Assembly (NCBI RefSeq): GCF_003403295.1
Contig: NZ_QUWV01000011.1
Coordinates: forward strand, 1-64,000
DNA from: Komagataeibacter melaceti
GTDB lineage: Bacteria > Pseudomonadota > Alphaproteobacteria > Acetobacterales > Acetobacteraceae
Reading direction: 5' to 3'
Length of the DNA stretch: 64,000 bases
In this document: positions 1,825-37,027 of the stretch, one piece after another
Position numbering within the stretch: position 1 is the first letter of the stretch
Layout of the letters: every line of letters begins with the position of its first letter
Notes under the pieces: generated by a model
What the model saw: only the letters and a program-made list of their open reading frames with translations
What the model was told of the DNA's origin: nothing
Databases searched by the model: none
Position numbers and translations under genes: made by a program

Positions 1825-1837
1825 AACGCAGTACAGC

Positions 1838-3318: not shown

Positions 3319-3332
3319 CCGCGTGAGGAGAC

Positions 3333-5288: not shown

Positions 5289-5307
5289 CTGATGGAGGCC
5301 GGTTCAC

Positions 5308-8678: not shown

Positions 8679-8770
8679 AGTTTCAGGGACCAGACATATT
8701 CATACCACGATAGCGGCATGTGCGCCTTCCATCCTGAAGGCCGTCCCCGAACGGGCAGGATCTCATTTTC

Positions 8771-10315: not shown

Positions 10316-10354
10316 GGCCCCATCCGTCACGACTGTCATGAAGGTGAAGAACAG

Positions 10355-16178: not shown

Positions 16179-16189
16179 GGCTGCCTCCG

Positions 16190-21219: not shown

Positions 21220-22122
21220 CTACTCCGCCGCGCGCAGGGTGGCAGCATGCGCTTCCGCCTCAGCCGCAAGATCCGCCAGCAGGGCGCTGCGCTGACCGCG
21301 CAGCCAGTCGGTCCATTCATCCATCCCCGCGCCGGACCGGGTCGAGACATGCAGTATCCGCGCCTTGGGGGCGACACGCGCCACGTTGGCCTCCAGCATG
21401 GCGGTATCAACATCCAGATGGGGCAGCAGGTCGGTCTTGGTCAGGACGACCAGATCGGCATCCTGGAAGATATCAGGGTATTTGAGCGGTTTGTCTTCCC
21501 CTTCCGTCACGGACAGCAGGGTCACGCGCCGGTGTTCACCCAGATCGAAAGCGGCGGGACAGACCAGATTGCCCACATTTTCAATGAACAGAATCCCCCC
21601 TGCCACAAGCGGCAGGTGCGCCATGGCATGGCCGACCATGTGGGCGTCCAGATGGCAGCCCTTTCCGGTATTGACCTGTATGGCGGGCGCACCCGTGGCG
21701 CGGATACGCTCGGCATCATTGCTGGTCTGCTGGTCGCCCTCGATCACGGCGGCGGGAAACTTCTGGCCGAGACGGCGCAATGTTTCCACCAGCAGCGTGG
21801 TCTTGCCCGCGCCGGGACCGGCCAGCATGTTGAGCGCCAGCACGCCCGCCTGTTTCAGCCGCGCCCGGTTCGTGGCCGCGAACCCATCGTTTTTTGACAG
21901 GATGCCGCGTTCGATCTCGACCATGCGGGCCTGTGACAGGCCGGGCGCATGCGCGCGGGCGGGGCCGGTGCCATAATCCAGCACATCGCCGTCATGGGCG
22001 TGGCCTTCATGGGCATGGCCTTCACCCGGTGTGTGGTCATGGCCGTGCTCATGCGCATGGCCATGGGCGTGTCCGGCCTCGATCCGTGCTTCATCACCAT
22101 TGCAGCCGCATACCGTGCACAT
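21220..22122 (-). CDS. hypB: Hydrogenase nickel incorporation GTPase HypB
   Basis: A GTPase that inserts nickel into the hydrogenase large subunit with HypA and can store nickel. The start is at ATG 22122 (MCTVCGC, the N-terminal metal motif), preceded by GGAGG and overlapping the hypA stop (TGATG). This gives 300 aa. Residues 18-44 form a His-rich run ([14 protein letters not shown] and [10 protein letters not shown]) as in nickel-storing HypB. The G-domain shows [14 protein letters not shown] (P-loop), [11 protein letters not shown] and LTKTDLLPH. The metal site [10 protein letters not shown] links GTP hydrolysis to nickel binding. Confidence 0.96.
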
Positions 22123-22463
22123 CAGATTACCTCCAGATCCATGATCCTGATTTCCGTCCCACCTGTTGGCTGGAGCCGCGTGCCGCCACAATGCGGGCAC
22201 GGGTCCAGCCGCTGCAACAGTTCCACATCCGTCCCGCAGTCGAAGCACCATGCGCGGCCCGGTGCCTCGTGCAGTTCCAGCGCCGCCCCTTCCACCACGG
22301 TGCCGCGCGCCACGACATCGAACCCGAAGCGCAGGGCCTCGACCTCGACCCCGGCGAAACGACCGATTTCAACACGGACACGCCGCACGCGGGAAAAATT
22401 TTCCCGCTGCCCGGACTCCTCGATCACGTCGATCAGGCTTTCACACAGCGACATCTCATGCAT
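22122..22463 (-). CDS. hypA: Hydrogenase nickel metallochaperone HypA
   Basis: Delivers nickel together with HypB. It has 113 aa and starts [10 protein letters not shown], where the N-terminal amine and His2 bind Ni. The structural zinc site is formed by CFDC and CPHC with the intervening loop. The gene follows hupK by 3 bp and overlaps hypB by one base. Length and motifs are canonical. Confidence 0.96.
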
Positions 22464-22466
22464 GGC

Positions 22467-23471
22467 CTAACCCTCCTCGACCGTGACGGGCACGCACGGA
22501 TTGACGCAGCTTAGCATAAGGCGCGCAAGCCATGGGCGGCGAGGCCCGTCAACCGGCAGGCCCGCCGCAATGCGTGGCAGCAGCCCGCCCGGTGCGACAT
22601 GCCAGAATGTGGGGGAAAGGATGGCGTATTGCGTCACCCGGCCCTGCCGCACCACCGCCCGGTGCGTCACGATGCCCCGTGCGGCGCGGGCCACCCCGAT
22701 GCCGGGCAGGTGCGGAGACAGCGCGGCCGCACGTGAAAACAGGGCCTGCGACGTGGGATGAAGATACGCCAGCAGGTCCACAACCCGCGCCATGAGCCGC
22801 ACAAAAAGCGAGCCCCCTTCCGCCCCGATCAGGGCGCGGATGACGGGGGTGTCCATATGGTCAGGCAGTATTCCCGCATCACGGGGTGTCGGGGGCGCGT
22901 CGTGCCCCGCGCCAAACGCGGCCTCGATATCCCCGGCCTGCAGCGGCGGGAGCGACACGCGCCCCCAGTCGGCGCATAGCCTTTCACGCAGCCATGCCAG
23001 AACCGTAACAAGAACCGGGGCATGTGGCTCCCGCGCGCTTTCCAGCCATTGCCCAAGGCCCGGCAGGTCGAAGCCCGCAATATCGGCAGATGTTCCGGTC
23101 AGTTCCCGCCGCAGCCCGGCACAGGCTGCGGGGTCGTGGGCTTTCAGGTGCATGAGCCGCGCCAGTAGGTCACGCGCAGGCGGCAGGCCCAGCCAGCGCG
23201 GCCATTCCAGCAGCAGGGCAAGGGCATGGTCACGCATGATTTCAAGCCGCACCCCATCATGGCATGCAGCATCCATTTCCGTCAGGCCCAGCGCACGGGT
23301 GGCCGCGATGGCATGCGCCGTGCCGCACAGGCTGAACAGGCTGGAGACGCGCGCCACGGCTTCGTGCGGGGTCAGCCCCACGCAAAGCTGGCCCGCATCC
23401 ACCACCGCCCCGCAGGCAAGCCGCCACGGCCTGCCGTTTTCACCGCCGGAAAGGGTCAGGCTACCGATCAT
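22467..23471 (-). CDS. hupK: Hydrogenase assembly protein HupK/HoxV
   Basis: A 334-aa accessory protein distantly related to the hydrogenase large subunit and thought to act as a scaffold during Fe(CN)2CO transfer. The N-terminal LSLCGTAHAIAATRALG resembles the L1 CxxC region of large subunits with the second cysteine replaced by His, as in HupK/HoxV. The rest is Ala/Leu-rich with little conservation. It overlaps the upstream fusion gene by 4 bp and precedes hypA by 3 bp. The call rests on position in the hup order as well as on motif. Confidence 0.85.
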   Translation of the reverse strand: MIGSLTLSGGENGRPWRLACGAVVDAGQLCVGLTPHEAVARVSSLFSLCGTAHAIAATRALGLTEMDAACHDGVRLEIMRDHALALLLEWPRWLGLPPARDLLARLMHLKAHDPAACAGLRRELTGTSADIAGFDLPGLGQWLESAREPHAPVLVTVLAWLRERLCADWGRVSLPPLQAGDIEAAFGAGHDAPPTPRDAGILPDHMDTPVIRALIGAEGGSLFVRLMARVVDLLAYLHPTSQALFSRAAALSPHLPGIGVARAARGIVTHRAVVRQGRVTQYAILSPTFWHVAPGGLLPRIAAGLPVDGPRRPWLARLMLSCVNPCVPVTVEEG

Positions 23472-24319
23472 GCCCCGATACGGCTCCCGCTTCTTGCCGC
23501 CCCGAACAGAAGCCCCCGGCGGCTTGGCATGGTGGGCCTGGCCGCAACCGGCTCGGGTGCCGGGGGGGCGGCCTCGGGCTTATGGTCAGGGTTCACGCTC
23601 GGGTCGAGCAGGGCCTTCAGCGCTGCCTGCGCGGTCTCAATCGCCTGGAGCATGGTGGTGAATTCAAACACCGGGGAAAAGAGCGAGCAGGCCTTGTAAG
23701 GCGGCAATTCCGCCACCTCCGCCTTTGATGCACGGTTGACGAGCGTGAACTCGTAGCGGCCCGAAGGGAATTCGATCAGTTCCTTGCCGCCCGACACCAG
23801 ATCCGACCAGTCCTCCGCCACACCGGGGGCAAGGATCAGGTTCATGAACCATGGCGTAATCAGGATTCCCAGAAAATGCCCCTCATACGGGCGGAAACCC
23901 ACCGCACGTACCCCCAGCGCCTCGTTCAGCAGGGGGATGCCGCGCATCTGCCCACGATGGATTTCCCGAAATGCATCCTCCATTTGCCGGGCCAGCAGGG
24001 CCGCCTCATGGTTTTCGGGGAGAACCTCCACATCCTCCGCCGGGGAGACTGGCGGCGGGTCTGCGGGCAGCGTGGGCGCTTCGGCAGCCGTGGCACCGGG
24101 CACAACCATGAACTGTTCGCGCGCGCCGTCGCATGTGGGGCAGCGCCAGTGCTCCGGCAGGGCCGAGAACGGGGTGCCGGGCGGGACCTGCCATGTCTCG
24201 CACCCCTGCGCCGGGTCATAGACCGACCAGCAGATCTTGCACTCCATGACGGAATCCGGCCGCAGACGATCCGCATTGCCCATATAGGAGCCTTCAAACC
24301 CGTGGAAGACATCAGTCAT
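23468..24319 (-). CDS. hupIJ: Rubredoxin HupI fused to hydrogenase chaperone HupJ
   Basis: A 283-aa protein joining two accessory factors usually made separately (HupI/HoxR and HupJ/HoxT). Residues 1-75 are a rubredoxin with Cys27/30 (MECKICW) and Cys60/63 (WRCPTCD), plus the characteristic VPPGTPF. After a Pro/Ala linker (about 80-105), the HybE/HupJ domain runs from DAFREIHRGQMRGIPLLN through GFRPYEGHFLGILITPWFMN to about residue 235, followed by a Pro/Ala-rich tail ending SRRGLLFGAARSG. Rubredoxin HupI is thought to protect or reduce HupS during maturation in air. Fusion suggests that both act on the same small-subunit intermediate. No frameshift or internal start is needed to make the fusion. 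Confidence 0.9.
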   Translation of the reverse strand: MTDVFHGFEGSYMGNADRLRPDSVMECKICWSVYDPAQGCETWQVPPGTPFSALPEHWRCPTCDGAREQFMVVPGATAAEAPTLPADPPPVSPAEDVEVLPENHEAALLARQMEDAFREIHRGQMRGIPLLNEALGVRAVGFRPYEGHFLGILITPWFMNLILAPGVAEDWSDLVSGGKELIEFPSGRYEFTLVNRASKAEVAELPPYKACSLFSPVFEFTTMLQAIETAQAALKALLDPSVNPDHKPEAAPPAPEPVAARPTMPSRRGLLFGAARSGSRIGA

Positions 24320-25197
24320 GCCGCAGGTTCCACCGCGCTCAGGGCCGCGCAGATTTCAGCCAGGCGGGTTGCGGAATCGGCAATATCCTCCCGTGCGGCG
24401 CAGGCCACCTCCGGCACGTCGGTAACCTCGATGGTGTCGAGGATGAGCGTGTCCATCGAGTTGTAATAGCGCACGCGCCAGACATGGGGCGTGCCGGTGG
24501 CCTCGATACGGCAGTTGCCATACCCGCGCGAGAGAATGGTGGCATGGCCCCGCCCCAGCACCCGGGCAATCAGGTCCAGATCTTCGGGCGTGTGGGGCAG
24601 CAGGCTCAGGTTGACCACATGCGCCCGCGCACCGGGCCGCCACCGCGCCGCGTGGTCAAGCAGTTCCGTCAGCACCGCCGGGGCATTGACCACGCCGGGC
24701 GTGATGTGGTCGGCCATGTCGATCTCCGGCCCGTGCGCGGGAAAGGCGCGGGAGAGGATGACACGGGGAAAGGCCGCGATTTCCACCTGTTCACGCACCT
24801 CTCCGTCATCGCCCACAGCGCGCGTGCGGGCGCGCATGGACCATACCCCGGCAAAGACACTTTCCTGCACCGCGATCCGGCCGGCGGCGTCTTCCAGCAC
24901 TATGGAGACCTCTCCCTCCCCCAGCGCATCGTCAAACACGGCCTGGCTGGCCGCATCCAGCCCGGTGCGCTTGATGATGGTGGAATGGCCGGGCGTCCAT
25001 GCCCGCGCCACATCCCGCACCTGTTCCAGCAGCCCGATGGCAGGCTGCACGCGGGCCGGGTCATCAATCTCGGGCGTATGGGCGGCGTACACATGCACGC
25101 CGGAGGGCATGGCGAGGTACTGAAGCCCCTCCTCATTTTCCGGGGGCATGGAGCCGGGGCCAAAACCCACGGGTGGATAGGCGAAGGAAGCGGTCAT
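24316..25197 (-). CDS. hupH: Hydrogenase expression/maturation protein HupH/HoxQ
   Basis: An accessory factor for the membrane-bound uptake hydrogenase, implicated with HupG in small-subunit handling before Tat export. The 293-aa protein has the family N-terminus (FGPGSMPPENEEGLQYLAMPSGV) and a C-terminal region with EATGTPHVWRVRYYNSMDTLILDTIEV. It overlaps both neighbours by 4 bp, indicating translational coupling from hupG through to hupIJ. No cofactor motif is seen. The function is from family knowledge, and the precise biochemical role is not established. Confidence 0.9.
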   Translation of the reverse strand: MTASFAYPPVGFGPGSMPPENEEGLQYLAMPSGVHVYAAHTPEIDDPARVQPAIGLLEQVRDVARAWTPGHSTIIKRTGLDAASQAVFDDALGEGEVSIVLEDAAGRIAVQESVFAGVWSMRARTRAVGDDGEVREQVEIAAFPRVILSRAFPAHGPEIDMADHITPGVVNAPAVLTELLDHAARWRPGARAHVVNLSLLPHTPEDLDLIARVLGRGHATILSRGYGNCRIEATGTPHVWRVRYYNSMDTLILDTIEVTDVPEVACAAREDIADSATRLAEICAALSAVEPAA

Positions 25198-25613
25198 GCC
25201 GAAACATCTTTCTGGCCAGCATTGGAATAAGGGGACAGGAGGCCACGGAACAGGCGGCCATATTCATCCCAGTCGCGCATGCGCGGGATCATGCCCACCG
25301 GCACGCCATCATGCAGCAGGACAAGGGCGGGCAGGTTCAGCCCGTCGATGCGCGCGCACAGTTCCGCCTCCATCGCCGCATCCGCCACCGCGCCACGCAG
25401 CGGCGTGCCGGATGGCAGCAATGTCTGTGCGGCCCGCAGCAGGTCAGGCAGGACCGCCGCGATATCGGGGGTTTCCAGATGCGGGCGGGCGTGGCCGGGC
25501 ACAAAGACCACCACCAGCCCCAGGGCTGCGGCGGCGGGCGTATCGAGCACCGGCATGCCATGCCGTTCCGACAGGGCGCGGACAAGGGGAGTGTCCTGAA
25601 CGGATGCCATCAT
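25194..25613 (-). CDS. hupG: Hydrogenase accessory protein HupG/HoxO (thioredoxin-like)
   Basis: A 139-aa protein resembling the HupG/HoxO/HyaE group, a thioredoxin fold without the CxxC active site, that binds the twin-arginine signal of the small subunit. LNLPALVLLHDGVPVGMIPRMRDWDEY is the diagnostic C-terminal stretch. The start is taken at the ATGATG pair at 25613-25608, which overlaps the hupF stop (TGATGATGG). A longer open frame to 26051 runs through hupF in another frame and is not used. Confidence 0.88.
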   Translation of the reverse strand: MMASVQDTPLVRALSERHGMPVLDTPAAAALGLVVVFVPGHARPHLETPDIAAVLPDLLRAAQTLLPSGTPLRGAVADAAMEAELCARIDGLNLPALVLLHDGVPVGMIPRMRDWDEYGRLFRGLLSPYSNAGQKDVSA

Positions 25614-25969
25614 CACGCCTCCTCCAGCCCGGCCGCCCGCGCGGCTTCCAGATGTGGGGGAAGCCGGGGCGGCCCGGCGCACAGATCGGCAAAGCCGCGC
25701 GCCACCACGTCCGATACCGCCTGCGCGCCATCGGGGCGGGACAGCGCGGCCAGTGCGCCAAGGGCTGCGGCAATCCGCGCGGCCTCGCCTGCTTCCAGCC
25801 GCGTGCGCGCCAGCCCCATGAACACCAGCACCTGATCGCCGGGGCCAGCCTCGGGCAGCAGGGCCATGTCCACCCGTTCCTCCCGTGGCGGTGCGCCGGG
25901 AAGGGTTGCGATGCACAGGCCATACCCATCGCACACGCTCTGGACTGTCATTGGAATTCCCACGCACAT
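25613..25969 (-). CDS. hupF: HypC-family hydrogenase chaperone HupF/HoxL
   Basis: A second HypC paralogue of 118 aa, dedicated to the membrane-bound hydrogenase large subunit. In Rhizobium, HupF stabilises HupL under oxygen. The N-terminus MCVGIPM has the conserved Cys2. GDQVLVFMGLARTRLEAGEA is the second family block. A C-terminal extension of about 30 residues (GPPRLPPHLEAARAAG) distinguishes it from HypC. It is 5 bp after hupD and overlaps hupG by one base. Confidence 0.92.
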   Translation of the reverse strand: MCVGIPMTVQSVCDGYGLCIATLPGAPPREERVDMALLPEAGPGDQVLVFMGLARTRLEAGEAARIAAALGALAALSRPDGAQAVSDVVARGFADLCAGPPRLPPHLEAARAAGLEEA

Positions 25970-25974: not shown

Positions 25975-26619
25975 CTAGCCCTCCATCCGGGCGAGCACGC
26001 GCTCATCACCGTAGCGACATGCCACGGCCGCATCCGGGCGGCCGGTTTCATACGGGGTCCGTGCCACCGCCGGGGTCACCAGCGTCTCCCCGCCCGGCGC
26101 GGGGCGGGCACGGGCAACCACGCCATAGTCACGTGCCAGCAGGTCCAGCACGGCCCGGGCGACCGGCTCCACCCGGGCTGCGACCTCCGGCGTCAGGCCG
26201 CCGCCATAATCCTTCATCGTGACGGGCTGCACGCCCACCAGCGAGACCCGGCGTGGCGCGTGGCCGCGCAGGTCCAGCAGCGCCAGCACTTCCTGAAATC
26301 CGGTCTGGTGCAGGCTCATCTTGCGCGCGCCGATCGTGGCGGGCACGTCCGCGCCATGCACCTCGTGCACGGTGGCGGGGGGCAGGCCGAAATCAAGCGC
26401 ATCGACAATGACCAGACCGGCCAGATCCTCCAGATGGGGCAGCAGGTACAGGCCCTGCGTGCCGCCATCCATCAACTCGACGGGTGCGGGAAATTCATAC
26501 CGCGCGGCCAGATATTCCACCGTGCGCACACCGAACCCCTCATCCGCCCACAGGATGTTCCCGATACCGAGAACCAGCACCCTGCCGACTGTCCCGCCTT
26601 CCTGCTGATCAATCGTCAT
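25975..26619 (-). CDS. hupD: Hydrogenase maturation endopeptidase HupD
   Basis: Cleaves the C-terminal extension of HupL after nickel insertion. In its 214 aa, VLGIGNILWADEGFGVR starts the fold, and the nickel-sensing residues of the HybD family are E27 (ADEGFG), D73 (IVDALDFG) and H104 (MSLHQTG). Its target is the extension after His590 of HupL. The sensor subunit HupV has no such extension and should not need it. The gene heads the second part of the cluster and has its own -24/-12 sequence about 70 bp upstream. Confidence 0.94.
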   Translation of the reverse strand: MTIDQQEGGTVGRVLVLGIGNILWADEGFGVRTVEYLAARYEFPAPVELMDGGTQGLYLLPHLEDLAGLVIVDALDFGLPPATVHEVHGADVPATIGARKMSLHQTGFQEVLALLDLRGHAPRRVSLVGVQPVTMKDYGGGLTPEVAARVEPVARAVLDLLARDYGVVARARPAPGGETLVTPAVARTPYETGRPDAAVACRYGDERVLARMEG

Positions 26620-26686
26620 CCAGCCTGTCGCCTCCGTTCCACAACCCTGGCCTGCGCGTTGCGCGCCCTGTTGACTCCTTATTGAA

Positions 26687-26702
26687 GCAAGAACCGTACC
26701 AT
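26687..26702 (-). promoter_or_regulatory. Sigma-54 (-24/-12) promoter of the hupD operon
   Basis: Read on the minus strand, the sequence is TGGTACGGTTCTTGC followed by TTC. GG (26700-26699) and GC (26688-26687) are separated by exactly 10 bases, as required for sigma-54. It lies about 70 bp upstream of hupD and after the terminator that ends hupSLC. It matches the hupS promoter at nearly every base, including flanks. Confidence 0.8.
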
Positions 26703-26740
26703 CTGCTCGGGGTGATCAGGCGCTAACCGCCCGGAAACAA

Positions 26741-26777
26741 AAAACCTGCCGCCACGGTATCCATGGCGACAGGTTTT
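26741..26777 (-). terminator. Rho-independent terminator after hupC
   Basis: AAAACCTGCCGCCA (26741-26754) pairs with TGGCGACAGGTTTT (26764-26777) with a single mismatch, around a 9-base loop. On the minus strand the stem is followed by TTTTTTGTTT. It lies 46 bp past the hupC stop and just upstream of the hupD promoter, so it separates the structural operon from the maturation operon. Confidence 0.85.
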
Positions 26778-26822
26778 ATGGAAGGCAGCTTTTCGGTTTT
26801 ACGGATAGTGGAAGTTTCGTGT

Positions 26823-27581
26823 TCAGTCCGGCCGGTCATCGCGGAAATTACGGTAACCATTCGTCATGGCCGAAATCAGCGTCTGCCGGGACATGATATC
26901 CTCACGCGAGACCGTATAGACATGGATCATCACGAACAGCACGATCACCCACATGCCCCAGTGGTGCAGGAAATGGGTGGACAGGTCACCACCCTGCCAC
27001 GGCATGATCCAGCCGAATACACGGCCTTCCCAGCTATCAATGCCGGTTCCATCCGAATAGAGCGCGAAACCGGTCACGATCATGAACAGCCCCGTCAGCG
27101 TAAAGCAGAAGAACAGGGCCGTACGCGCCAGCGCGTTATGGCCGACCACGGTTTTCGCCTGTTTCTTGATAAAGGCGTAAACCAGCATCTCATCCAGCAG
27201 GTCTTTCCAGTACTCCTTTTTCCATAGCGGCAGGAAAAAGATCTCCCGGGAATAGATATTGCCCATGAAGGCCCAGATCACCCGCCCGACAAAGCCGACC
27301 GAGAATATCCACGCCGCCGCGAAATGCAGGTAGCGTATCCAGCCCATCTGGTAATGGCTGCTGGCCTCACCGGACAGGCTGGGCGGTGGTGAGCCGATCA
27401 GGTACCCCGTTACGGCCAGCACCACGATGGATGCGGCGGTAACCCAGTGCCACAGCCGCACGGGTGCTTCGTAAACATAGACTGTCAGCAGCCTGCGCGC
27501 ACGCAACGGACGGGCGTGCAGCCCCTCCAGATTGGTGCCCTTCAGTTCCGCGTCCGTCAGCAGACGGTCGGATGCGCTCAT
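26823..27581 (-). CDS. hupC: Ni/Fe-hydrogenase b-type cytochrome subunit
   Basis: A di-haem membrane cytochrome b that anchors HupSL to the periplasmic face and passes electrons from H2 to ubiquinone. It has 252 aa and four hydrophobic segments with conserved histidines in or near them: VRLWHWVTAASIVVLAVTGYLIG, YLHFAAAWIFSVGFVGRVIW, LTGLFMIVTGFALY and HFLHHWGMWVIVLFVMIHVYTV. The signature FLHHWGMW is typical of HupC/HyaC. It is separated from hupL by a perfect hairpin and followed by a terminator. Confidence 0.95.
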   Translation of the reverse strand: MSASDRLLTDAELKGTNLEGLHARPLRARRLLTVYVYEAPVRLWHWVTAASIVVLAVTGYLIGSPPPSLSGEASSHYQMGWIRYLHFAAAWIFSVGFVGRVIWAFMGNIYSREIFFLPLWKKEYWKDLLDEMLVYAFIKKQAKTVVGHNALARTALFFCFTLTGLFMIVTGFALYSDGTGIDSWEGRVFGWIMPWQGGDLSTHFLHHWGMWVIVLFVMIHVYTVSREDIMSRQTLISAMTNGYRNFRDDRPD

Positions 27582-27650
27582 TTCTTCCTCCCCTCAGGCG
27601 GGGCCGGATACCTGTTCCGGCCCCTGCCCCCTTATTGTGCGGGCATGCCC

Positions 27651-27680
27651 TTCCCACCGGGTCCATTCACCCGGTGGGAA
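27651..27680 (-). repeat. Perfect 12-bp hairpin between hupL and hupC
   Basis: TTCCCACCGGGT (27651-27662) pairs perfectly with ACCCGGTGGGAA (27669-27680) around a 6-base loop. It starts 7 bp after the hupL stop and is 70 bp before hupC. There is no T-run, so it is more likely an mRNA-processing or 3'-end-stabilising structure that favours HupSL over HupC than a full terminator. Confidence 0.7.
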
Positions 27681-27686
27681 AGCGCG

Positions 27687-29504
27687 TTAGCGGACCGTGA
27701 CGCGGGCAAGTTCCTCGCCATCAGGCGCCATCACGTGGGTTGCGCAGGCCATGCAGGGATCGAAGGAATGCAATGTGCGCAGGATTTCCACCGGCTGCTC
27801 CGGGTTGACCATCGGCGTACCCAGCAGCGATGCCTCGAACGCACCGATATTGCCCTTGGCATCGCGCGGGCCACCGTTCCATGTGCTGGGCACGACGCAC
27901 TGGTAATTCTCGATCCGGCCATCGCGGATACGTATCCAGTGCCCCAGCCCGCCACGGGGGGCGGCAACCAGCCCCACACCCTTGGCTTCCTTCGGCCAGG
28001 TGGACGGGTCCCATTTGGAGACATTCGCCGTGGCGAGGTCGCCATTGCGGATGTTGGTGATCAGCGCGTCATAGTCATCCAGAAGCTGCTGGGCGCAGTA
28101 ATGGGCTTCCAGCGCGCGGGCGAGCGTGCGCCCGATGGTGCTGGGCAGCGCCTGCCGTGGGGTCAGGCTGGTGCCCGCCAGCGAGTTGAAGCGGCCAAGC
28201 GCGTCATCAACCTGCGCACGCACATAGGGAACACCCTTGGAATACGCCAGGATGTAGCGCGCCAGTGGCCCCACCTCGCACGCATTGCCACGCCAGCGCG
28301 GGGCCTTGACCCACGAATAGCGGGCACTTTCATCAATTTCGACAATGTTGGTGCGGCTGCCCTTAGCGCCCGCGCCCAGTTCGAAATGCGGGTCGGTCAC
28401 CCCATCCCACGGATGCAGCCCGATATCCTCGCGCCCCTTGCCGTAATCGTACCAGCTATGGGTGACGAATTCCTGCACCTGCTGCGGGTCGCGCGCATCA
28501 ACGGGATGGATCTCGTCCCAGTTGCCGCCGATGATCGCCCCGCCGGGAAAGCGGTCGGTTGACTTGTCGCCCTGCACGGTGGGGAAATCACCGTAATCCA
28601 TCACGTTGGTGGCAGCCAGGCCACCGCCATAGGTCCAGTCCTTGTAGTAACTGGCCACGGCCAGCACGTCAGGTACATAGACATTCTGCGAGAACGTGAA
28701 CGCATCCTGTATCTTCTGCTGGATGAAGTTCAGCCGCTCCATGTTCAGCGGGGCGCCCGCCGCCATGTCCCCGTCAATGTTGATGGCGCAGGGCACGCCA
28801 CCGACCATGTAGTTGGGATGCGGGTTCTTGCCGCCCAGAATGGTATGGACCTTCACGATCTCCTTCTGGAAATCGAGGGCTTCCAGATAATGCGTGACCG
28901 CCATCAGGTCGGCTTCGGGCGGCAGCAGGTAGGCCTTGCTGTCCCAGTAGCCGTTCTTGAAAATGCCGAGCTGCCCGCTTTCCACAAACTTCTTCAGCCG
29001 GTTCTGCACATCGCGGAAATAACCGGGCGAGGATTTGGGGTGGTTGGGGGAGACCGCCTGCTGCAGGGCCGATGTCGCGCGCGGGTCCGCCTTCAGCGCG
29101 TTGACCGGGTTGACCCAGTCCAGCGCGTGCAGGTGGTAGAAATGGACGACATGGTCATGCCAGGCCAGTATCTTCGCCATGATCTGGCGGATCAGGAACG
29201 CGTTGGTCGGGACACGGATGTCCAGCGCGTCTTCCACCGCACGCACGGACGCCAGCGCGTGGCAGCCGGTGCAGACCCCGCAGATACGCTCCACGAACGC
29301 CCAGGCGTCACGCGGGTCGCGCCCCTTCAGGATCACCTCCAGCCCGCGCCACATCGTGCCGGTGGAGACGGCGTTGCGGATGATGTTGTCGGCATCGACA
29401 TTCACCTCGCAACGCATGTGCCCTTCGATCCGGGTCAGCGGATCAACGATGATGCGCCGCCCCGTATTGTCGAGAGAAAAACCGTTTGCTGTCTGGATGG
29501 TCAT
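27687..29504 (-). CDS. hupL: Uptake [NiFe]-hydrogenase large subunit
   Basis: The catalytic subunit that splits H2 at the NiFe(CN)2CO site. It has 605 aa. The N-terminal nickel ligands are Cys75 and Cys78 ([14 protein letters not shown]), and the C-terminal ligands are Cys584 and Cys587 (DPCMACATH). A 15-residue extension after His590 (VMAPDGEE onward) should be removed by HupD. Motifs such as [14 protein letters not shown] and GTMWRGLE are canonical for group 1 enzymes. The start overlaps the hupS stop. It is exported with HupS by the Tat system, having no signal of its own. Confidence 0.97.
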
Positions 29505-30580
29505 CAGACGTCATCCCCCTTGTAACGCGCGCGGGTCAGCGCGCTGACAGCGGCATGCGCCGCAAGCCCTGCACCCACGACACCCGCCGCGGCCATTCCC
29601 ACCTTGTCTGCGCTCGCCTCGATCCCGAAGCCGCTGACATCCTGAAGCCGGGCGTACCATGATCCCTTGTCCCAGAACCCGTCCTCGGAGCAGCCGATGC
29701 AGCCATGGCCGGACTGGATGGGAAAGGAGACACCATCATTCCACCGCACGGTGGAGCAGGCGTTGTAGGTCGTGGGGCCCTTGCAGCCGACCTTGTAGAG
29801 GCAGTAGCCCTTGCGCGCGCCTTCATCATCAAAGGCCTCGACATACTGACCGGCATCAAAATGCGGGCGGCGGTAGCATTTGTCGTGAATCCGCTGGGAA
29901 TAGAACATCTTGGGTCGTCCCTGCCGGTCAAGCTCGGGCAGGCGGTCGAAGGTCTGCATGTAGGTGATGACACCCGTCATCACCTCTGCAATGGGAGGAC
30001 AGCCCGGCACCTTGATGATCGGCTTGTCCAGGATGACCTTGTGCACCGGGGTCGCCTGCGTGGGGTTGGGGCGCGCGGCCTGCACACAGCCATAGGATGC
30101 GCATGACCCCCACGAGATGACGGCCTTCGCCCCCGACGCCACACGCCTGAGCTGATCGACGAAGGGCTTGCCACCGATGATGCAGTACATCCCGTCCTCG
30201 TTCAGGGGGGGATTGCCCTCCACCGCCAGGATGTAGTTGCCGTGATACTTTTCCATCACTTCATCAAGGATGGCCTCGGCCTGATGCCCGGCGGACGCCA
30301 TGAGCGTATCGTCATAATCCAGCGAGATCATGGACAGGATCACGTCCTTGACCAGCGGATGCGCGGCACGGATGAAACTTTCCGAACAGCAGGTGCATTC
30401 CAGCCCATGCAGCCACAGCACCGGGGTACGGGGCTTGGTTTCCATGGCCTCGGCAATCTGGGGCACGAATTCCGGCCCCAGACCCAGTGCCGCGGCGGTA
30501 AGCGAGCAGTATTTGACAAAGGAGCGGCGCGATATGCCCTGTCGCCGCATCACATCGTAAAAAGTTTCAAGCACAGCCAT
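29504..30580 (-). CDS. hupS: Uptake [NiFe]-hydrogenase small subunit, O2-tolerant type
   Basis: Carries the iron-sulphur relay from the active site to HupC. It has 358 aa, with a twin-arginine signal (R18-R19-S-F-V-K then a hydrophobic stretch) and a C-terminal membrane anchor (about 325-348). The proximal-cluster cysteines are C62, C64, C65 (ECTCCSE), C160, C165 (GSCASYGC) and C194 (PGCPP). The two supernumerary cysteines C64 and C165 are the hallmark of the [4Fe-3S] cluster of O2-tolerant membrane-bound hydrogenases (E. coli Hyd-1, Ralstonia MBH). A -24/-12 promoter lies 60 bp upstream. It overlaps hupL by one base. Confidence 0.97.
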
Positions 30581-30640
30581 GTGTGGCGTCTTCCTTCCTC
30601 GGCTGCGGATCGGCAGGGGACCCGCGTCAACCTTGAGGAA

Positions 30641-30656
30641 GCATGAACCGTACCAT
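30641..30656 (-). promoter_or_regulatory. Sigma-54 (-24/-12) promoter of hupSLC
   Basis: On the minus strand the sequence reads CATGGTACGGTTCATGC followed by TTC. GG (30654-30653) and GC (30642-30641) are separated by exactly 10 bases. It is about 60 bp upstream of the hupS start in the 155-bp gap after hypF. The hupR and rpoN genes are in the same cluster. No clear HupR site (TTG-N5-CAA) was found by eye in the gap. Confidence 0.82.
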
Positions 30657-30735
30657 GTGAACCCGGCCGTATCGCGCCGCTAAAAAAGTCTGGCCTGGCG
30701 GGAACTTTGTGGAAAAAGCCTGACCACCCGGCCGA

Positions 30736-33081
30736 TCAGGTGCTTTCCATATACCGCACGGCGGCAATGGCCGCCTGCCCCAGCGCAATCCCGCCATCAC
30801 CCGCCGGGGCAAGGCGTGGCAGCAACACATGCAGGCCCACCATGCGCAACCGCATTTCCAGCGCCTCCACCAGCATGGCGTTGTGCATGACGCCACCGGA
30901 CAGGGCGATGGTCTCTACCCCGTGCCGCCGCGCGACCTGCCGGGCCACATCGGCGCAGGCAGTGGCCAGCCCCCGATGGAACGCCGCCGCGATATGGGCC
31001 GCTGGCGTGACCGCCGCCCTGAGCCGCAGGACCGCGCGCCACATGGGCGCGGGATCAATCCGCACCATGCCCCCTTCATCACGCAGGCCGAATGGCAATG
31101 CGTCATCACCCGCAGGAGCCTGCCGGGCCAGTGCCTCCAGCCGCATGGCCGCCTCCCCTTCATAGGACAGGCGTGCGGGGGCGACATCCAGCAGTGCGGC
31201 CATGGCATCGAACAGTCGTCCGGCGGAACTGCCGCGCGGTGCGTTCATGCCGGTGCGGACCATGGCGCGCATGACGGCAACGGGGCGCTGGTCCAGCGCG
31301 GCAATGGGGACATGGTGATGGGCAGCGTCCGTGCCCTCCACCCCCAGTGCTGCATCCAGATGCGCCAGCAGCATACGCCACGGCTCCCGGCTGGCGGCAT
31401 CTCCGCCCGGCATCGCGACGGGTGCGAGGCCACCCACGCGCTGGCACTCACGGTAATCACACAGCAGGATTTCACCCCCCCATGCCGTCCCGTCCTGCCC
31501 CAGCCCCACGCCGTCCAGCGCAATCCCCACGACCGGGCCGGATGTCACCCCGACCCCATGTTCCACCATGCAGGCCGCGACATGGGCGTGATGGTGCCAT
31601 ACCGGCAGCAGGGGCAGGCCAGCCTCCTGCGCCAGTTGCCGGCCCAATGCGTGGCTGTGATAATCAGGATGGGCATCCACCGCGATTACGGCTGGATGAT
31701 GCGCGAACAGGTTGCGGTAATCGGCCAGTGCCGCGCGGAATTCGTCCTGCACGCCCGGATCATCAAGGTTGCCGATATGGGCGGAAAGCAGCGCCTGCCC
31801 GTTCCCTGCCAGACAGAACGCGGCCTTCAGGTCCGCCCCCAGCGCCAGGACGGCGGGCGCATGCGCCATGTCTGGCGGCAGGGGCAGCGATGCCGGTGCC
31901 AGCCCGCGCCCGCGCCGGATGACCCGGCCCGCACCCGCGCAGACAGCCATCACACTATCATCCAGCCTGCGGGCAATGAGGCGGTCATGCACCAGCCAGC
32001 CATCGGCAATACCGGCCAGGTCCGTGTAGGCGCTGGCCTCATCAATCACCTGCGGGCAGCCCGAACGGTTACCGCTGGTCATGACCAGCGGCAGGCCGAC
32101 ACGCTCCAGCAGCAGGTCATGCAGGGGCGTATAGGCCAGCATGACCCCCACCCGGTCCAGACCCGGCGCAAGCCCGGCGGAAAGGGCGGGCCTGCCCGCT
32201 TCCCGCGCACGCACGGCAAGCGGCACCACCGGGGCGGCAGGATCACGCAGCAACGCCAGTTCCACCACTGTTGGCACACAGAAATCCATGACCATGGCGG
32301 CGCTGCCCATCATGACCGCCAGCGGCTTTGCCGGTCGTGCCTTGCGGGTGCGCAGTGTCCGCACGGCATCATCAGACGTGGCCAGACAGGCGAGGTGATA
32401 GCCACCAATTCCCTTAAGGGCGATAATCCCGCCTCGGGACAGGACCGCAACCGCCGCATCCAGACTGTCTGCGGCCTTCCCCTCCCCCGGCATGACAAAG
32501 TGCAGGCGTGGCCCGCAGGCAGGACAGGCCACGGGCTGAGCATGGAAACGGCGGTCGGCCGGGTTGTCATATTCCGCGCGACAGGCCGCGCACATGCTGA
32601 ACCCGGCCATGGTCGTATGCTGGCGGTCATAGGGCAGGCCCGTCACGATGGAAAAACGCGGCCCACAATCCGTGCAGTTGGTAAAGGCATAGCCCGCGCG
32701 CCGTGCGCCAGGGGTGCGGATTTCCGCACGGCAGGCCGGGCAGGTCGCCAGATCGGGTGCGATGCCCGTGCTGATGTTTCCATGCGCGCTATCGGCAATG
32801 ACGAACCCGGCCCCTTCCGGCAATGCGGCGGGCACGCGCACCAGATCCCGCACGACCGCCTGCGGTGGTCCCTGCCGGATTTCCCGCACAAGGGCAGCGC
32901 GCGCGGCGGATGGCCCGGCCACCACGATTTCCACCTCATCACCCCGGTTACGCACGCTGCCGCGCAGCCCCAGCCGATGGGCCACACGCCATACGAAGGG
33001 GCGAAAGCCCACCCCCTGCACCACGCCGCTTACGCGGATCAGTTCGGCTTCCTCCTCCACCGGCGCAGGCAACCCGGTCAA
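30736..33081 (-). CDS. hypF: Carbamoyltransferase HypF
   Basis: Makes carbamoyl-AMP from carbamoyl phosphate and ATP and transfers the carbamoyl to HypE. It has 781 aa with all expected modules: acylphosphatase domain (GVVQGVGFRPFVWRVA, near 17-32), two zinc-finger pairs (CPAC/CTDC and CAAC/CPAC), YrdC-like domain (around 205-395, KGIGGYHLAC) and Kae1-like domain with HHHAH, ending with ALSGGVMHNAML. It is a full-length, cluster-linked copy. The ATG overlaps the hupV stop (ATGA), so it belongs to the hupTUV transcript. It ends just upstream of the hupS promoter. Confidence 0.96.
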   Translation of the reverse strand: MTGLPAPVEEEAELIRVSGVVQGVGFRPFVWRVAHRLGLRGSVRNRGDEVEIVVAGPSAARAALVREIRQGPPQAVVRDLVRVPAALPEGAGFVIADSAHGNISTGIAPDLATCPACRAEIRTPGARRAGYAFTNCTDCGPRFSIVTGLPYDRQHTTMAGFSMCAACRAEYDNPADRRFHAQPVACPACGPRLHFVMPGEGKAADSLDAAVAVLSRGGIIALKGIGGYHLACLATSDDAVRTLRTRKARPAKPLAVMMGSAAMVMDFCVPTVVELALLRDPAAPVVPLAVRAREAGRPALSAGLAPGLDRVGVMLAYTPLHDLLLERVGLPLVMTSGNRSGCPQVIDEASAYTDLAGIADGWLVHDRLIARRLDDSVMAVCAGAGRVIRRGRGLAPASLPLPPDMAHAPAVLALGADLKAAFCLAGNGQALLSAHIGNLDDPGVQDEFRAALADYRNLFAHHPAVIAVDAHPDYHSHALGRQLAQEAGLPLLPVWHHHAHVAACMVEHGVGVTSGPVVGIALDGVGLGQDGTAWGGEILLCDYRECQRVGGLAPVAMPGGDAASREPWRMLLAHLDAALGVEGTDAAHHHVPIAALDQRPVAVMRAMVRTGMNAPRGSSAGRLFDAMAALLDVAPARLSYEGEAAMRLEALARQAPAGDDALPFGLRDEGGMVRIDPAPMWRAVLRLRAAVTPAAHIAAAFHRGLATACADVARQVARRHGVETIALSGGVMHNAMLVEALEMRLRMVGLHVLLPRLAPAGDGGIALGQAAIAAVRYMEST

Positions 33082-34556
33082 TGGACCGTGCAGGCCATGC
33101 AGGGATCGAAAGAACGCACGATATGCTGCACGGATAGCGGCGTACGTTCTCCCTCACGCACGACCGCACCCTCCAGCGCATGTTCCAGCGGCCCCGGTAT
33201 TCCCGCGCCGTCACGCGGGGAGAAATTCCATGTGGTGGGCGCTACGATCTGGTAGCGGGCAATACGCCCGTTTTCCACCTGCACCCAATGCCCCAGCGCG
33301 CCACGGGCGGCCTCGGTCATGCCAATGGCGCGACCATCGGGCACCCCGTCCGCCACGTTGCACCATGGCTGGCCGGGAACCAGCATCCTGACCCAGCCCT
33401 CCATTGTCATGACCAGTCGCGCGCTTTCCACCAGCCGCGCAACCACGCGGCTCATGACGTTTCCCCCACCCTGCGCCACCATAGCGCGCGCGAGCGGGTG
33501 CCCCGCCATCAGCTGGCGGGCCAGCGCGCCGGTCTCACACGGCTGGCCGGAAAGGCGCGGGGCCTTGCACCAGCTATATCCCTGCCGGTTATTCAGGTCA
33601 GGCACTGTCGAGCCATCAAAGGGAGCATTGGGCCGCGCGCGATCGGTCATGTAGCTCGTGGCATGATCCTCGGCCACGGTGGCAATATCCAGCGCCCCTA
33701 CCCTGCCCTGCGCAAACACCCCGGCGGGCCACAAACGCTGGCCATCATCTGCTGACAGCCCACCCGGATAGGCGCCGTAACTGAGAAAACGGTCATAAGA
33801 GCGGCCTGATTGCGCCAGTTCAAGATCATGCGCGATACGCAGGAACAGCCGCAGGTCACCCTCCGGCCCCGTGCTACGCCAGCGTTCAAGGTCTTCCACG
33901 TCCGTCAGGGCCGCGACTTCTTCCAGCGGTGCGCCAAACAGCCCCTCTTCCAGCGCCGCGCGCACGCCGGACAGGACCGTGAGCATGCGCATACATTCCT
34001 GCGCCTCCACCCCGCGCGACACACCACCGGGCTGGATGGCCAGCGTATGCGGCCAGCGCCCGGCCAGAATACCCATTATGTGCAGCAGCAGCGCGCGGGT
34101 TTGCAATATCGATCGCGCCGCCGTGCCGCGCAGGGCGGCGAAACGCCGGACCACGTGATCATGCCATGGATAGGCCGCATAATCAGGGCGGGCAAAATCC
34201 GGCATGAAGAACAGGTGAAAATGGGTCAGGTGATCGGCCAGGTTCTCGGTGGCCAGAATCAGGTTGGTGGCCACGCGCCCATTGGCCGCCGGTTCAACCC
34301 CCATAAGGCCCGCCAGCGCCAGCGCCGCCGCGTGGGATTGCGAGACCGAACATATCCCGCAGATACGCGGCGCGATGACCAGCGCATCCATCGGGGTGCG
34401 TCCTTCAAGTATCCGCTCGATGCCGCGAAACAGCGTTGCGTTGACAAAGGCTGCACGCACGCGCGCCTCCACCACATCCAGCCGTACCTCCAGATCCCCC
34501 TCGACCCGGTTGAACGGGCCGACAACCAGCCGGGTGCTTTCTTCCGCCTGTTTCAT
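33078..34556 (-). CDS. hupV: H2-sensor hydrogenase large subunit
   Basis: The large subunit of the regulatory hydrogenase (group 2b). It has 492 aa. Nickel ligands are Cys66/Cys69 (PRICGICS) and Cys486/Cys489 (DPCMACTVH). The protein stops right after His492, with no C-terminal extension, which is the usual feature of HupV/HoxC and means it is matured without HupD cleavage. Together with HupU it should bind H2 in the cytoplasm and control HupT. It follows hupU by 15 bp and overlaps hypF. Confidence 0.96.
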   Translation of the reverse strand: MKQAEESTRLVVGPFNRVEGDLEVRLDVVEARVRAAFVNATLFRGIERILEGRTPMDALVIAPRICGICSVSQSHAAALALAGLMGVEPAANGRVATNLILATENLADHLTHFHLFFMPDFARPDYAAYPWHDHVVRRFAALRGTAARSILQTRALLLHIMGILAGRWPHTLAIQPGGVSRGVEAQECMRMLTVLSGVRAALEEGLFGAPLEEVAALTDVEDLERWRSTGPEGDLRLFLRIAHDLELAQSGRSYDRFLSYGAYPGGLSADDGQRLWPAGVFAQGRVGALDIATVAEDHATSYMTDRARPNAPFDGSTVPDLNNRQGYSWCKAPRLSGQPCETGALARQLMAGHPLARAMVAQGGGNVMSRVVARLVESARLVMTMEGWVRMLVPGQPWCNVADGVPDGRAIGMTEAARGALGHWVQVENGRIARYQIVAPTTWNFSPRDGAGIPGPLEHALEGAVVREGERTPLSVQHIVRSFDPCMACTVH

Positions 34557-34571: not shown

Positions 34572-35570
34572 CTAGCGCCGTTTGGAAGGATGGCACGAAG
34601 GCGGGACGACCTGATGGTCACTGACGGCGTTCTTTGCCAGCCGCATGGGCGTTGCCGCCTTTGCCAGGGATGACAGCGCCACGAACCATGCCTTGGGCAT
34701 GTCCGTGGGCAGGCCGACGGGAATGCCCGCGATCTTGGGTGTCTGGCAGAAGGGATGGCCGGGCTCCTCGAATTCAGGGTCGGTGCAGTTGATGCAGGCA
34801 TAACCCGCGCGGGTGCACGACCCGCTGCCGTTCCACAATCTGGTATTGCAGTCACCATGCGCCTGCGTGCCGATACAGCCCATATGTTCCATCATGCAGC
34901 CCAGTTCGGACGGATGCCGGGCGCTGGCCTTGTATTCATAGAACTCGTTGCGGGTGCAGCCATGATGCACAAGCTGGTCGGCATAGAAACGTGGCCGCCG
35001 GAAATCATCCAGCGCTGCCGTATCCAGCATGTTCCGGGCCAGCAGCATCAGCGTTTCCGTCACCCAGTCAGGATGCGTGGGACACCCCGCCACGTTGATG
35101 ACCGGCAGGCCGCCCCGCGCCACGAACCCCGCACCCAGCGCGCCGCCGGGGTACTGCCCGTCATACTGCAGGCCACAGGCATCAAGAATGTTGGGGGCCG
35201 CCGCCGTGACCCCGCCATAGGCCGCGCATGACCCCACGGCCACGACATGCCGCGCCACACCGCACAGGCGGCGCACCCATTCAATCATCGCGACATCGGT
35301 GCCTGCCAGTGTATGGAAGCGCCCTGTTCCCTCCGGCCCGCGCAGTACCGCGCCCTCCATACACAGCGCGTCCAGCACCACGCGCCCGGCCAGAACATCC
35401 TCGAACAGTTCAAGGGCTTCGGCCCCCGTACGTTCCGACAGGCTGGGGTGCCACAGCAGTTCAATTCCGGCACCGCGCAATGTTGTCAGCAGATCAGGGG
35501 ATTCCGCGCAGAGCAGCGACATGGTGCATCCCCCACACCCGCCAGACTGCAACCAGATGACATTGAACAT
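34572..35570 (-). CDS. hupU: H2-sensor hydrogenase small subunit
   Basis: The Fe-S subunit of the regulatory hydrogenase. It has 332 aa, with no Tat signal and no C-terminal anchor, so it is cytoplasmic. The proximal-cluster ligands read GGCGGC and GSCAAYGG, i.e. the standard [4Fe-4S] set without the two extra cysteines of HupS. This contrast inside one locus supports distinct roles. The C-terminal part has CINCTDPEFEEPGHPF, as in HupU/HoxB. The start overlaps the hupT stop (TAATG). Confidence 0.95.
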   Translation of the reverse strand: MFNVIWLQSGGCGGCTMSLLCAESPDLLTTLRGAGIELLWHPSLSERTGAEALELFEDVLAGRVVLDALCMEGAVLRGPEGTGRFHTLAGTDVAMIEWVRRLCGVARHVVAVGSCAAYGGVTAAAPNILDACGLQYDGQYPGGALGAGFVARGGLPVINVAGCPTHPDWVTETLMLLARNMLDTAALDDFRRPRFYADQLVHHGCTRNEFYEYKASARHPSELGCMMEHMGCIGTQAHGDCNTRLWNGSGSCTRAGYACINCTDPEFEEPGHPFCQTPKIAGIPVGLPTDMPKAWFVALSSLAKAATPMRLAKNAVSDHQVVPPSCHPSKRR

Positions 35571-36946
35571 TACAGGCCGTCCCTCCCCTCGGGGCGGGAT
35601 GGCGCGGGCGGGCAGTCGGGCAGGTCCAGCGTCATTATCGTGCCTCCATCGGGGTGCGCCGCAGCGGTTATGGTGCCCCCGTGCTCGCTTACCATGCGGT
35701 AGCTGATCGCAAGCCCCAGCCCTGTCCCCTTGCCGACCGGCTTGGTCGTGAAAAACGGGTCGAAAATGCGCCCGGCTATTTCCGGGTCAATGCCCGGACC
35801 ATTATCCCGCACCATCAGGAGGACACGCCCGTCCTGCCGCCGCCCGCTGATGTGCAGGACCGGCGTCTCGATCCCCTCCATCGCATCAACGGCGTTCTGC
35901 ACCAGGTTCATCATGACCTGCTGCATCTGCCCTGCATGACCATCAATTTCCAGCGGTCCCTCAATATCTATCGTCACCGCGACGGGCCTGCCGCCTGCGG
36001 CCAGAACCCAGTCCTGCGCCGTATGGGCGACCGACGCCAGATCGAATATCCCGCCCCGGGCATGCGCGCCAGACGAAAAACGCCGCAGGTCCGCCACAAT
36101 ATCGCGCACCCGCTCCGCGCCCTCCACAATGCCGCCCAGCGCGCCATTGAGTTCGGACATGACCATATCAATGCGCAGGTCATGACGCTGGCGCGAAAAC
36201 TCGGCAGCACAGGCGGAAGCGTGGATGACGCCAAGATAGGATTCAAGCCGGCTGGCAAAACGCCGCAGCGTATGGGCATTGCCATAGACAAAGGAGATGG
36301 GATTGTTGAGTTCATGCGCTACCCCCGCCACAAGGCGGCCCAGCGAGGCCATTTTTTCCGCCTGCACAAGCTGCGTCTGCGCCTCCTTCAGGCGCTGGTG
36401 CGCGCGGTCCAGTTCGCTATAGGCCCGGCGCAGTTCCCCCAATGGGCGCGCGACCAGCACCATGCCCGATGGACGCCGCCGGTCATACAGCGCCGCGCCA
36501 TTGACCGCGAAGGGAAGCGGCCCGTTGACGGTTGACAGGACGAACTCCCTATCCTCCAGCCGCTGCCGCCGCGCCATGGCCGCCGCCACATCCTCGGCCG
36601 CGGTGGGGGATGAAGGATGGATCAGGTCCTTCAGCCACCCCATGCGCGCTCCCGCCGCTGCGGCGGGAAGCAGGAGGCGCTCCGCCGCCTGGTTGGTACG
36701 CACCACGCGCAGGGTGGTGTCGCACGCCACCAGAATGTCGGACATTGCATCAAACACCCCGGCCATGAAGGTGTGTGCATCTTCCAGTTCGGCATTCTTG
36801 CGTTCCAGCGCGACCTGCTGCGCCATCAGTTCGGCCCATGTCTCGTCCATCTTGTGGAGGACATTCAGCCAGACCTGTTCATTGTCCGTGACGGGCACCG
36901 TTTCATCTGCTTTTTCAACAGGCGGGATGAAACCGTCCATTGTCAT
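35570..36946 (-). CDS. hupT: Hydrogenase sensor histidine kinase HupT/HoxJ
   Basis: The cytoplasmic PAS-containing kinase that couples HupUV to HupR. I prefer the start at 36946 (MTMDGFIPP) because GGGAGG lies just upstream. The in-frame ATG at 36961 is an alternative. It has 458 aa: a short N-terminal helix, a PAS domain (about 55-170), a coiled coil ([20 protein letters not shown]), a HisKA box with the phospho-His in [14 protein letters not shown], and a HATPase domain ([29 protein letters not shown]). No transmembrane segments. In Rhodobacter, HupT phosphorylates and silences HupR when H2 is absent. Confidence 0.94.
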
Positions 36947-37027
36947 CACATCCTCCCCCATCCCTGCCGTGGAGGAATCGACACCACCCGGACCATATTT
37001 TCAAGGTTTTTCGCACAACATGCCTCC

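Follow-up and report, generated by a model that had tools for sequence, protein, structure and literature searches.

Introduction

Sigma-54 control of hydrogenases and sigma-54 paralogues dedicated to one task are each already known. Here we describe a hydrogenase (hup) gene cluster of Komagataeibacter melaceti, lying in a 64,000-nucleotide stretch of contig NZ_QUWV01000011.1 (positions 1 to 64,000; this whole stretch is the window), that carries two sigma-54 boxes, P1 before hupSLC and P2 before hupD, together with an rpoN (sigma-54) gene of its own. One parallel is Cupriavidus necator, in which HoxA and sigma-54 reportedly control the membrane-bound and soluble hydrogenase operons and which likewise has a regulatory hydrogenase, a histidine kinase, an NtrC-type activator and sigma-54 promoters before the structural operons; its sigma-54 is said to be the general one, encoded outside the hydrogenase cluster. 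No box was found in the C. necator stretch that we examined, but this covers only 114 nt before the gene, too short for comparison. A function-linked second rpoN, as here, is also known as the plasmid-borne rpoN2 type of Rhizobium etli, which is reportedly linked to nitrogen fixation. All of the 230 plasmid records with an RpoN match are below 60% identity to the RpoN of the hup cluster, and the 15 listed are rhizobial, at 37.5-40.2%.

In Rhodobacter capsulatus, according to PMC5133592, H2 releases HupT and unphosphorylated HupR then activates; the sensor and regulator set described there, HupUV-HupT-HupR, is common to the cluster here. The Rhodobacterales loci that we read, unlike this cluster, have a HupR without GAFTGA and no sigma-54 box. 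In Cereibacter sphaeroides each of RpoN1, RpoN2 and RpoN3 is tied to one activator and gene set, and the paralogues serve nif, flagella and xrpA (PMC11999139), whereas the copy described here would serve a hydrogenase and is the sole sigma-54 found in three Acetobacter. The nearest prior mention concerns Bathymodiolus mussel symbionts, in which a gene labelled rpoN in a hup/hyp cluster with hupR is called a rubredoxin gene and is given no regulatory role in the text read (PMC9789115); the comparison is by description only. For the Acidithiobacillia, comparative genomics predicts HupR to be a sigma-54 activator paired with hupSL; unlike here, HupT is lacking and the single RpoN tracks the species tree as a housekeeping gene (PMC12194929). 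None of the top-ranked results from open-licence PubMed Central (PMC) text deals with a sigma-54 linked to a hydrogenase in acetic acid bacteria, and among the literature results listed a dedicated, cluster-borne hydrogenase sigma-54 in these bacteria appears to be new.

Two conserved sigma-54 boxes

We read P1 and P2 as sigma-54 promoters under the control of HupR and H2, and the RpoN of the cluster as a specialised sigma-54 dedicated to both, the whole forming a self-reinforcing unit; from the comparative evidence below we put the probability of this reading at roughly 0.8. The original prediction had placed two nearly identical -24/-12 promoters, TGGTACGGTTC[T/A]TGCTTC, before hupS and hupD. 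The pattern is real, with GG-N10-GC on the minus strand at both sites, which stand where they were predicted except that the exact positions were off by 1-3 nt (26684-26701 and 30638-30655). The distance to the start codon, predicted as 60-70 bp, is 61 nt for hupS and 68 nt for hupD, counted from the C of GC; the similarity expected past the core takes the form of an ungapped 29-base match with 25 bases identical; and the terminator proposed at the break in the gene string is found as a 17-bp stem after hupC, ahead of the hupD box. P1 and P2 are the sole matches in the window to the 18-mer pattern at up to 3 mismatches (shuffled sequence has 0.04 on average, and two matches never arose in 100 shuffles), and their extended similarity scores 19, whereas 300 shuffles average 7.7 and peak at 13. 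Relative to the consensus TGGCACGNNNNTTGCW, P1 agrees at 10/12 and P2 at 11/12 positions, both having T, not C, at the fourth. Both thus have the GG-N10-GC core in a TGGCAC/TTGC-like context, and the genome encodes a GAFTGA activator and an rpoN.

The boxes are conserved upstream of the same genes in orthologous loci. Among 80 named hupS loci kept from 350 candidates, 57 have a box, defined as GG-N10-GC at 9/12 or better, 20-130 nt upstream of hupS. Both P1 and P2 are present in 10 of the 12 acetic-acid-bacterial loci (this genome included), and also in G393, a genome outside that set; outside the acetic acid bacteria P2 occurs in a few loci, such as L081 and L082 of Zavarzinia, L087, L091 and L108. 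The hupC terminator hairpin starts 74-76 nt before the P2 box in all ten box-bearing acetic-acid-bacterial sequences, while its stem sequence varies.

The presence of a box agrees with the activator loop of HupR in 49 of the 52 loci where the loop can be read, loci that are related to one another and hence are not 52 independent cases: 42 combine G[AS]FTGA with a box, seven have another loop and no box, three have G[AS]FTGA but lack a box, and the fourth combination, another loop together with a box, does not occur. The seven are six Rhodobacterales and Asticcacaulis, which has GAFVGA (L101, L089, L090, L098, L099, L107, L111). The cluster also encodes the regulatory hydrogenase HupUV, the kinase HupT and the response regulator HupR, and hupT-, hupU-, hupV- and hupR-like frames occur as well in Gluconacetobacter, Acetobacter, Ancylobacter and others. 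Together with the cluster rpoN, the 57 boxes and the loop-box agreement support the hydrogenase sigma-54 regulon first suggested from the two boxes.

A sigma-54 gene carried by the cluster

That rpoN gene was absent from the original prediction, and with it what would be ordinary hydrogenase promoters become a probable regulon with its own sigma factor. It adjoins nicO as the last queried gene of the cluster in this genome and in 8/8 relatives read (Acetobacter fabarum, A. okinawensis, A. suratthaniensis, A. peroxydans, A. lambici, an Acetobacter metagenome-assembled genome (MAG), Gluconacetobacter johannae and G. aggeris), and G393 has it likewise next to nicO at the end of the cluster; in A. 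papayae an rpoN fragment stands at a contig end, where linkage cannot be judged. In the ten non-acetic genomes with rpoN located, all draft assemblies, rpoN and hup lie on different contigs. In a tree of 38 RpoNs, a branch with 100/100 support sets the nine full-length linked proteins apart from the rest.

The activator-interacting, core-binding and DNA-binding domains of the cluster RpoN all score above cutoff, as does the NCBIfam equivalog model (Table 1), and its RpoN box is a variant within the family: it reads SRRTIVKYR in place of the canonical ARRTVAKYR. All ten linked RpoNs, counting the A. papayae fragment, have SRRT[VI]VKYR, while an alanine precedes KYR in 56/56 others (30 of these being the best-scoring of a family sample, not a random draw). 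This A to V change is among four alignment columns that split the nine linked RpoNs from the 29 others, and a Q to E change in the activator-interacting domain (region I) gives E in 9/9 linked proteins and Q in 29/29 others. It is through the RpoN box that sigma-54 touches the -24 element, and through region I that it touches the GAFTGA loop (PMC7057263). Searching 397 genomes of the family with a DNA pattern for the V-type box gave matches in five, this one and four of one other genus.

Probable dedication to the hydrogenase

In A. fabarum, A. okinawensis and A. suratthaniensis the single rpoN match is the hup-linked copy, and of three strong PF00158 proteins in each (matches of 40 bits or less were left out) HupR has GAFTGA and NtrC and NtrX do not. 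This genome has five strong PF00158 proteins, and GAFTGA is intact only in HupR and NifA; the motif reads GAFSGA in NtrC and is gone from NtrX and from an RtcR-like protein (L010, L012, L013). An NtrC-type protein with GAFTGA is present in G. johannae and G. aggeris (L173, L164; NtrC by neighbourhood), both of which keep another rpoN. The NtrC loop is degenerate in A. peroxydans and the Acetobacter MAG (L187, L188), even though these two also have a second rpoN. Loops of NtrC, NtrX and RtcR-like proteins are altered or lost elsewhere in the acetic acid bacteria too (L169, L179-L181, L290-L294), as if these proteins were now independent of sigma-54.

HupS was found in 4 of 26 genomes searched (this one, 13 of genus g43 and 12 of genus g31), and within the genus of this genome rpoN occurs in 3/19 genomes and HupS in 1/19. 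G368, from another genus of the family, has a V-type box without HupS, and its rpoN is in pieces (contig C14, L266: about 10093-11075), with no other hup or hyp gene within the 35 kb read around it. The HupS-less G060, of the same genus as this genome, has short remnants of the rpoN 3' end and of hupT (L252: 8916-9331), with a weak hypF trace (E 0.006) beside them; they sit between rsmJ and an acyltransferase gene, the syntenic site of the cluster here, and G060 retains a nif-type rpoN despite this fossil. Among the genomes read, the linked rpoN is thus intact only beside hup genes and is decayed in both hup-less carriers seen; the other 17 genomes of this genus were checked by rpoN and HupS searches only. 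Recent acquisition of the cluster in this genome is not the simplest account given the G060 remnants at the syntenic site, and presence followed by deletion fits G060. These comparisons make the cluster RpoN a candidate dedicated paralogue, which would serve only its own promoters with its own activator.

hup and nifH/nifB boxes differ at -11

The boxes of nifH and nifB in six genomes (from the C226 region of this genome, L239, and nif regions L270-L279) have G at -11 in 12/12 cases, and the hup boxes of ten genomes have T in 20/20 (Fisher p 4e-9, relatedness ignored); the four genomes that hold both sets give 8 G for nif and 8 T for hup. The names nifH, nifB and modA in this comparison are given on the basis of their sequences. 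In the acetic acid bacteria modA boxes are mixed at -11, with three G, two T and one A, and the region read in G. aggeris contained no box. Candidates before other frames, left out of the counts, have mostly G at this position, with some T and C. Eight nifH upstreams on rhizobial and related plasmids include four with a box of at least 9/11, whose -11 bases are A, A, G and G, and three with none; the remaining one, from S. fredii, has a weak off-position match only. The R. leguminosarum hupS box has A at -11.

We do not claim the -11 difference as proof of insulation, since nifH has A or G in rhizobia and modA is mixed. Promoter choice by RpoN1 and RpoN2 of C. sphaeroides reportedly depends in part on the -11 base (PMC11999139, citing earlier work). 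Insulation of hup from the nif sigma-54 is therefore plausible.

Alternatives and contrary evidence

The alternative that survives best is that P1 and P2 are ordinary hydrogenase promoters open to any cellular sigma-54, the linked rpoN being interchangeable with the nif-linked copy and its linkage incidental. In its favour, genomes elsewhere that have just one rpoN match, among them Azospirillum, Xanthobacter and Ancylobacter, also have hupS boxes (9/10 non-acetic genomes), the rpoN of all ten lying on another contig, although draft contigs leave linkage possible; and this genome does have a nif-linked RpoN. Against it stand the lack of any other rpoN match in three Acetobacter, the retention of the linkage across Acetobacter, Gluconacetobacter and the genus of this genome, a clade with fixed private residues, a gene broken or nearly erased in the two hup-less carriers seen although G060 keeps its nif-type rpoN, and the -11 difference between hup and nifH/nifB boxes. 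We consider this alternative unlikely.

Several observations weigh against our preferred reading of a dedicated, cluster-borne sigma-54. First, the boxes do not stand out by sequence: P1 and P2 are two of the 11 sites that score at least 10/12 when the window is scanned with a plain consensus, and over the whole genome the 18-mer at up to 3 mismatches gives 10 matches against 10 for the reversed control and a looser pattern, TGGYAYRNNNYNTGCT, gives 14 against 15. The genome scan with the 18-bp matrix, proposed earlier as a check, thus yielded no additional regulon members above chance, and its matches were dropped as such. The looser pattern does beat the reversed control in A. fabarum (G223; 17 vs 9) and A. 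okinawensis (G222; 15 vs 5). Five near-matches (L003, L004, L005, L007, L008) lie inside stop-to-stop frames of 158-553 aa, but so do P1 and P2 (246 and 391 aa), so that a frame check does not discriminate. It is the exact pair, the position and the conservation that distinguish the boxes; a sequence scan alone is insufficient.

Second, box, activator and sigma factor do not always go together. In two Acetobacter MAGs from the rumen (L073, L102), hupSLCD and hyp genes are present with no sigma-54 box; neither has hupR between hypB and hypD or an rpoN match in its genome, and hupTUV was not seen in 6.9 kb upstream in L102, the upstream of L073 being covered for 3 kb only. Hence hupSL can perhaps persist without the P1/P2-HupR-RpoN system, in a version without such regulation, although the two MAGs, at 1.5 and 1.7 Mb, are small and could be incomplete. 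The Beijerinckia locus L052 and the gammaproteobacterial L124 and L125 have a G[AS]FTGA HupR but no box of 9/12 or better. Third, the hup promoters could be served by a second sigma-54 of this genome (C226, 44% identical), whose gene has what we take to be nifB and the gene of a NifA-like activator nearby. Fourth, the linked RpoN diverges fast: its identity between this genome and relatives is 42-57%, against 93-97% for the HupS of those relatives, and the tree program warns of long branches that join within the linked clade; relaxed constraint on the linked RpoN is hence possible.

A much weaker alternative holds that P1 and P2 are alike through recent duplication or gene conversion, not through selection for one sigma factor. 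The 25 identical bases of 29 here and the identical 16-base P1/P2 cores in A. suratthaniensis, A. peroxydans and A. okinawensis would suit it. But the best ungapped match between the two 86-nt stretches ends at 29 bases, the contexts are different (P1 behind hypF, P2 behind a terminator), and among species the spacers of the hup boxes vary while position, -24, -12 and -11 hold constant; we regard this alternative as very improbable. Least probable of all is that the boxes are relics and that sigma-70 RNA polymerase now transcribes hup, HupR being an activator of the conventional kind. For it, HupR of R. capsulatus can reportedly work without sigma-54, and the six Rhodobacterales loci with a readable loop have neither GAFTGA nor a box; against it, HupR here has GAFTGA intact, box and loop agree in 49 of 52 loci, and a simple sigma-70 scan of the minus strand of 26500-30900 found no site.

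Candidate activator half-sites

Upstream of the boxes, TGGAAR/YTTCCA half-sites are enriched, with 13 in ten 200-nt P1 upstreams (shuffle mean 1.4) and 26 in ten P2 upstreams (shuffle mean 2.6), counts reached by none of 500 shuffles in either set; TGGAAA is the commonest 6-mer of all, present in 14/20 upstreams. Across the 57 hupS upstreams with a box, the stretch from -106 to -76 (31 positions) contains 46 half-sites and the remaining 124 positions contain 14, with peaks at -103, -92/-93 and -82 to -78, a spacing of about one helical turn. A half-site lies between -106 and -76 in 42 of the 57, and the other 15 have none there. One P1 copy falls in the last hypF codons in this genome and several relatives, and the -91/-93 half-site at P2 is missing in this genome and present in 9 others. 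For these reasons (the hypF overlap, the missing P2 copy and the 15 upstreams without a half-site) TGGAAR is not claimed as a proven HupR site.

Just past hypF, at 30719-30740, lies a stem-loop (CCTGATC...GGTCAGG, then T-rich) that may act as a terminator or belong to the activator site; several relatives have an inverted repeat resembling it.

Layout of the cluster

From hupT (36961) through rpoN (14853) every gene is on the minus strand, in the order hupT, hupU, hupV, hypF, P1, hupS, hupL, hupC, terminator, P2, followed by hupD, hupF, hupG, hupH, a hupIJ fusion, hupK, hypA, hypB, hupR, hypC, hypD, hypE, nicO and rpoN (Table 1). Genes from hupD to rpoN overlap or are at most 13 nt apart, the frame at 25613-25969 filling the gap between hupD and hupG, and from this contiguous run P2 probably drives the maturation genes, the activator gene hupR and rpoN together. 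The listed rpoN start overlaps nicO by 85 nt; the true start is probably inside the frame. The names hypA, hypC, hupF, hupK, hupU, hupV and hupT are our assumption from position, as are hypE and hypB; for hypC we also went by its MCLGIPG start.

Table 1. Features of the hup cluster, in window coordinates
Feature	Position	Strand	Basis or remark
rpoN (sigma-54) of the hydrogenase cluster	14853..16274	-	Sigma54_AID, CBD, DBD; TIGR02395 321 bits, cutoff 277
nicO, nickel transporter	16190..17242	-	PF03824
hypE	17244..18311	-	AIRS domains
hypD	18308..19429	-	PF01924; start 19429 inferred from in-frame starts
hypC	19440..19721	-	translation
hupR, response-regulator sigma-54 activator with GAFTGA	19735..21216	-	domains and loop read
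hypB	21220..22251	-	PF02492
hypA	22122..22463	-	open reading frame (ORF); frames 61-72% identical in relatives; name by position
hupK	22467..23471	-	NiFeSe_Hases below cutoff; name by position
hupI-hupJ fusion (rubredoxin + HybE)	23468..24319	-	PF00301, PF11939
hupH	24316..25197	-	PF04809
hupG (HyaE-like)	25194..25616	-	domain; start inferred
hupF candidate, 118-aa frame between hupD and hupG	25613..25969	-	ORF; name by position only
hupD, hydrogenase maturation protease	25975..26619	-	PF01750
P2 sigma-54 box TGGTACGGTTCTTGCTTC upstream of predicted hupD...rpoN operon	26684..26701	-	pattern match; 68 nt before hupD ATG
Terminator after hupC, directly upstream of P2	26741..26777	-	17-bp stem; starts 76 nt before P2 box
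Candidate activator half-site CTTCCA	26779..26784	-	-83 from P2 box
Candidate activator half-site CTTCCA	26809..26814	-	-113 from P2 box
hupC, cytochrome b subunit	26823..27581	-	PF01292
hupL, large subunit	27687..29504	-	PF00374
hupS, small subunit with Tat signal	29504..30580	-	profile match
P1 sigma-54 box TGGTACGGTTCATGCTTC upstream of hupSLC	30638..30655	-	pattern match; 61 nt before hupS ATG
Candidate activator half-site TTTCCA	30710..30715	-	-60 from P1 box
Candidate activator half-site TGGAAA	30744..30749	-	-94 from P1 box; overlaps last hypF codons, coding constraint possible
hypF	30736..33081	-	profile match
hupV, regulatory hydrogenase large subunit	33078..34556	-	PF00374; name by position
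hupU, regulatory hydrogenase small subunit	34572..35570	-	PF01058, PF14720; name by position
hupT, PAS histidine kinase	35570..36961	-	profile match; name by position

The hupI-hupJ gene joins rubredoxin and HybE domains in one maturation protein. On the left side of the window (1-10315) lie exopolysaccharide-type genes (glycosyltransferases, flippase-like, epimerase). The G+C content is about 63-67% in the hup cluster and about 52-59% to its right.

Proposed mechanism and significance

In the mechanism that we propose, H2 would be sensed by HupUV-HupT, and HupR would act on closed sigma-54 complexes at P1 and P2, by the same logic as in R. capsulatus (PMC5133592). P1 would supply the enzyme (hupSLC), with transcription stopping at the terminator behind hupC, and P2 would restart transcription to provide maturation, nickel uptake, more HupR and more of the cluster RpoN. 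The unit would be self-reinforcing because hupR and rpoN both lie within the predicted P2 operon; once on, it would run with positive feedback, and basal transcription would be needed for start-up.

A further-reaching reading, which we hold at about even odds, makes the hydrogenase cluster of acetic acid bacteria a self-standing transcription unit whose private sigma-54 would be insulated from its nif counterpart, with the Q to E and A to V changes and T versus G at -11 as its marks. The cluster would produce both sigma factor and activator from a promoter that it carries itself, and in some Acetobacter all sigma-54 control in the cell would have shrunk to two promoters for H2 oxidation. Such a cluster offers a natural system for the insulation of sigma-54 paralogues, the degeneration of a sigma factor to a single task and the start-up of units that make their own sigma factor, and for hydrogenase engineering it suggests that a moved cluster may carry its own control machinery along. 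The usual view of sigma-54 is of a global factor that works with many activators; here it appears to be a local part of one enzyme's cluster, kept with the hydrogenase and, in two cases seen, lost with it.

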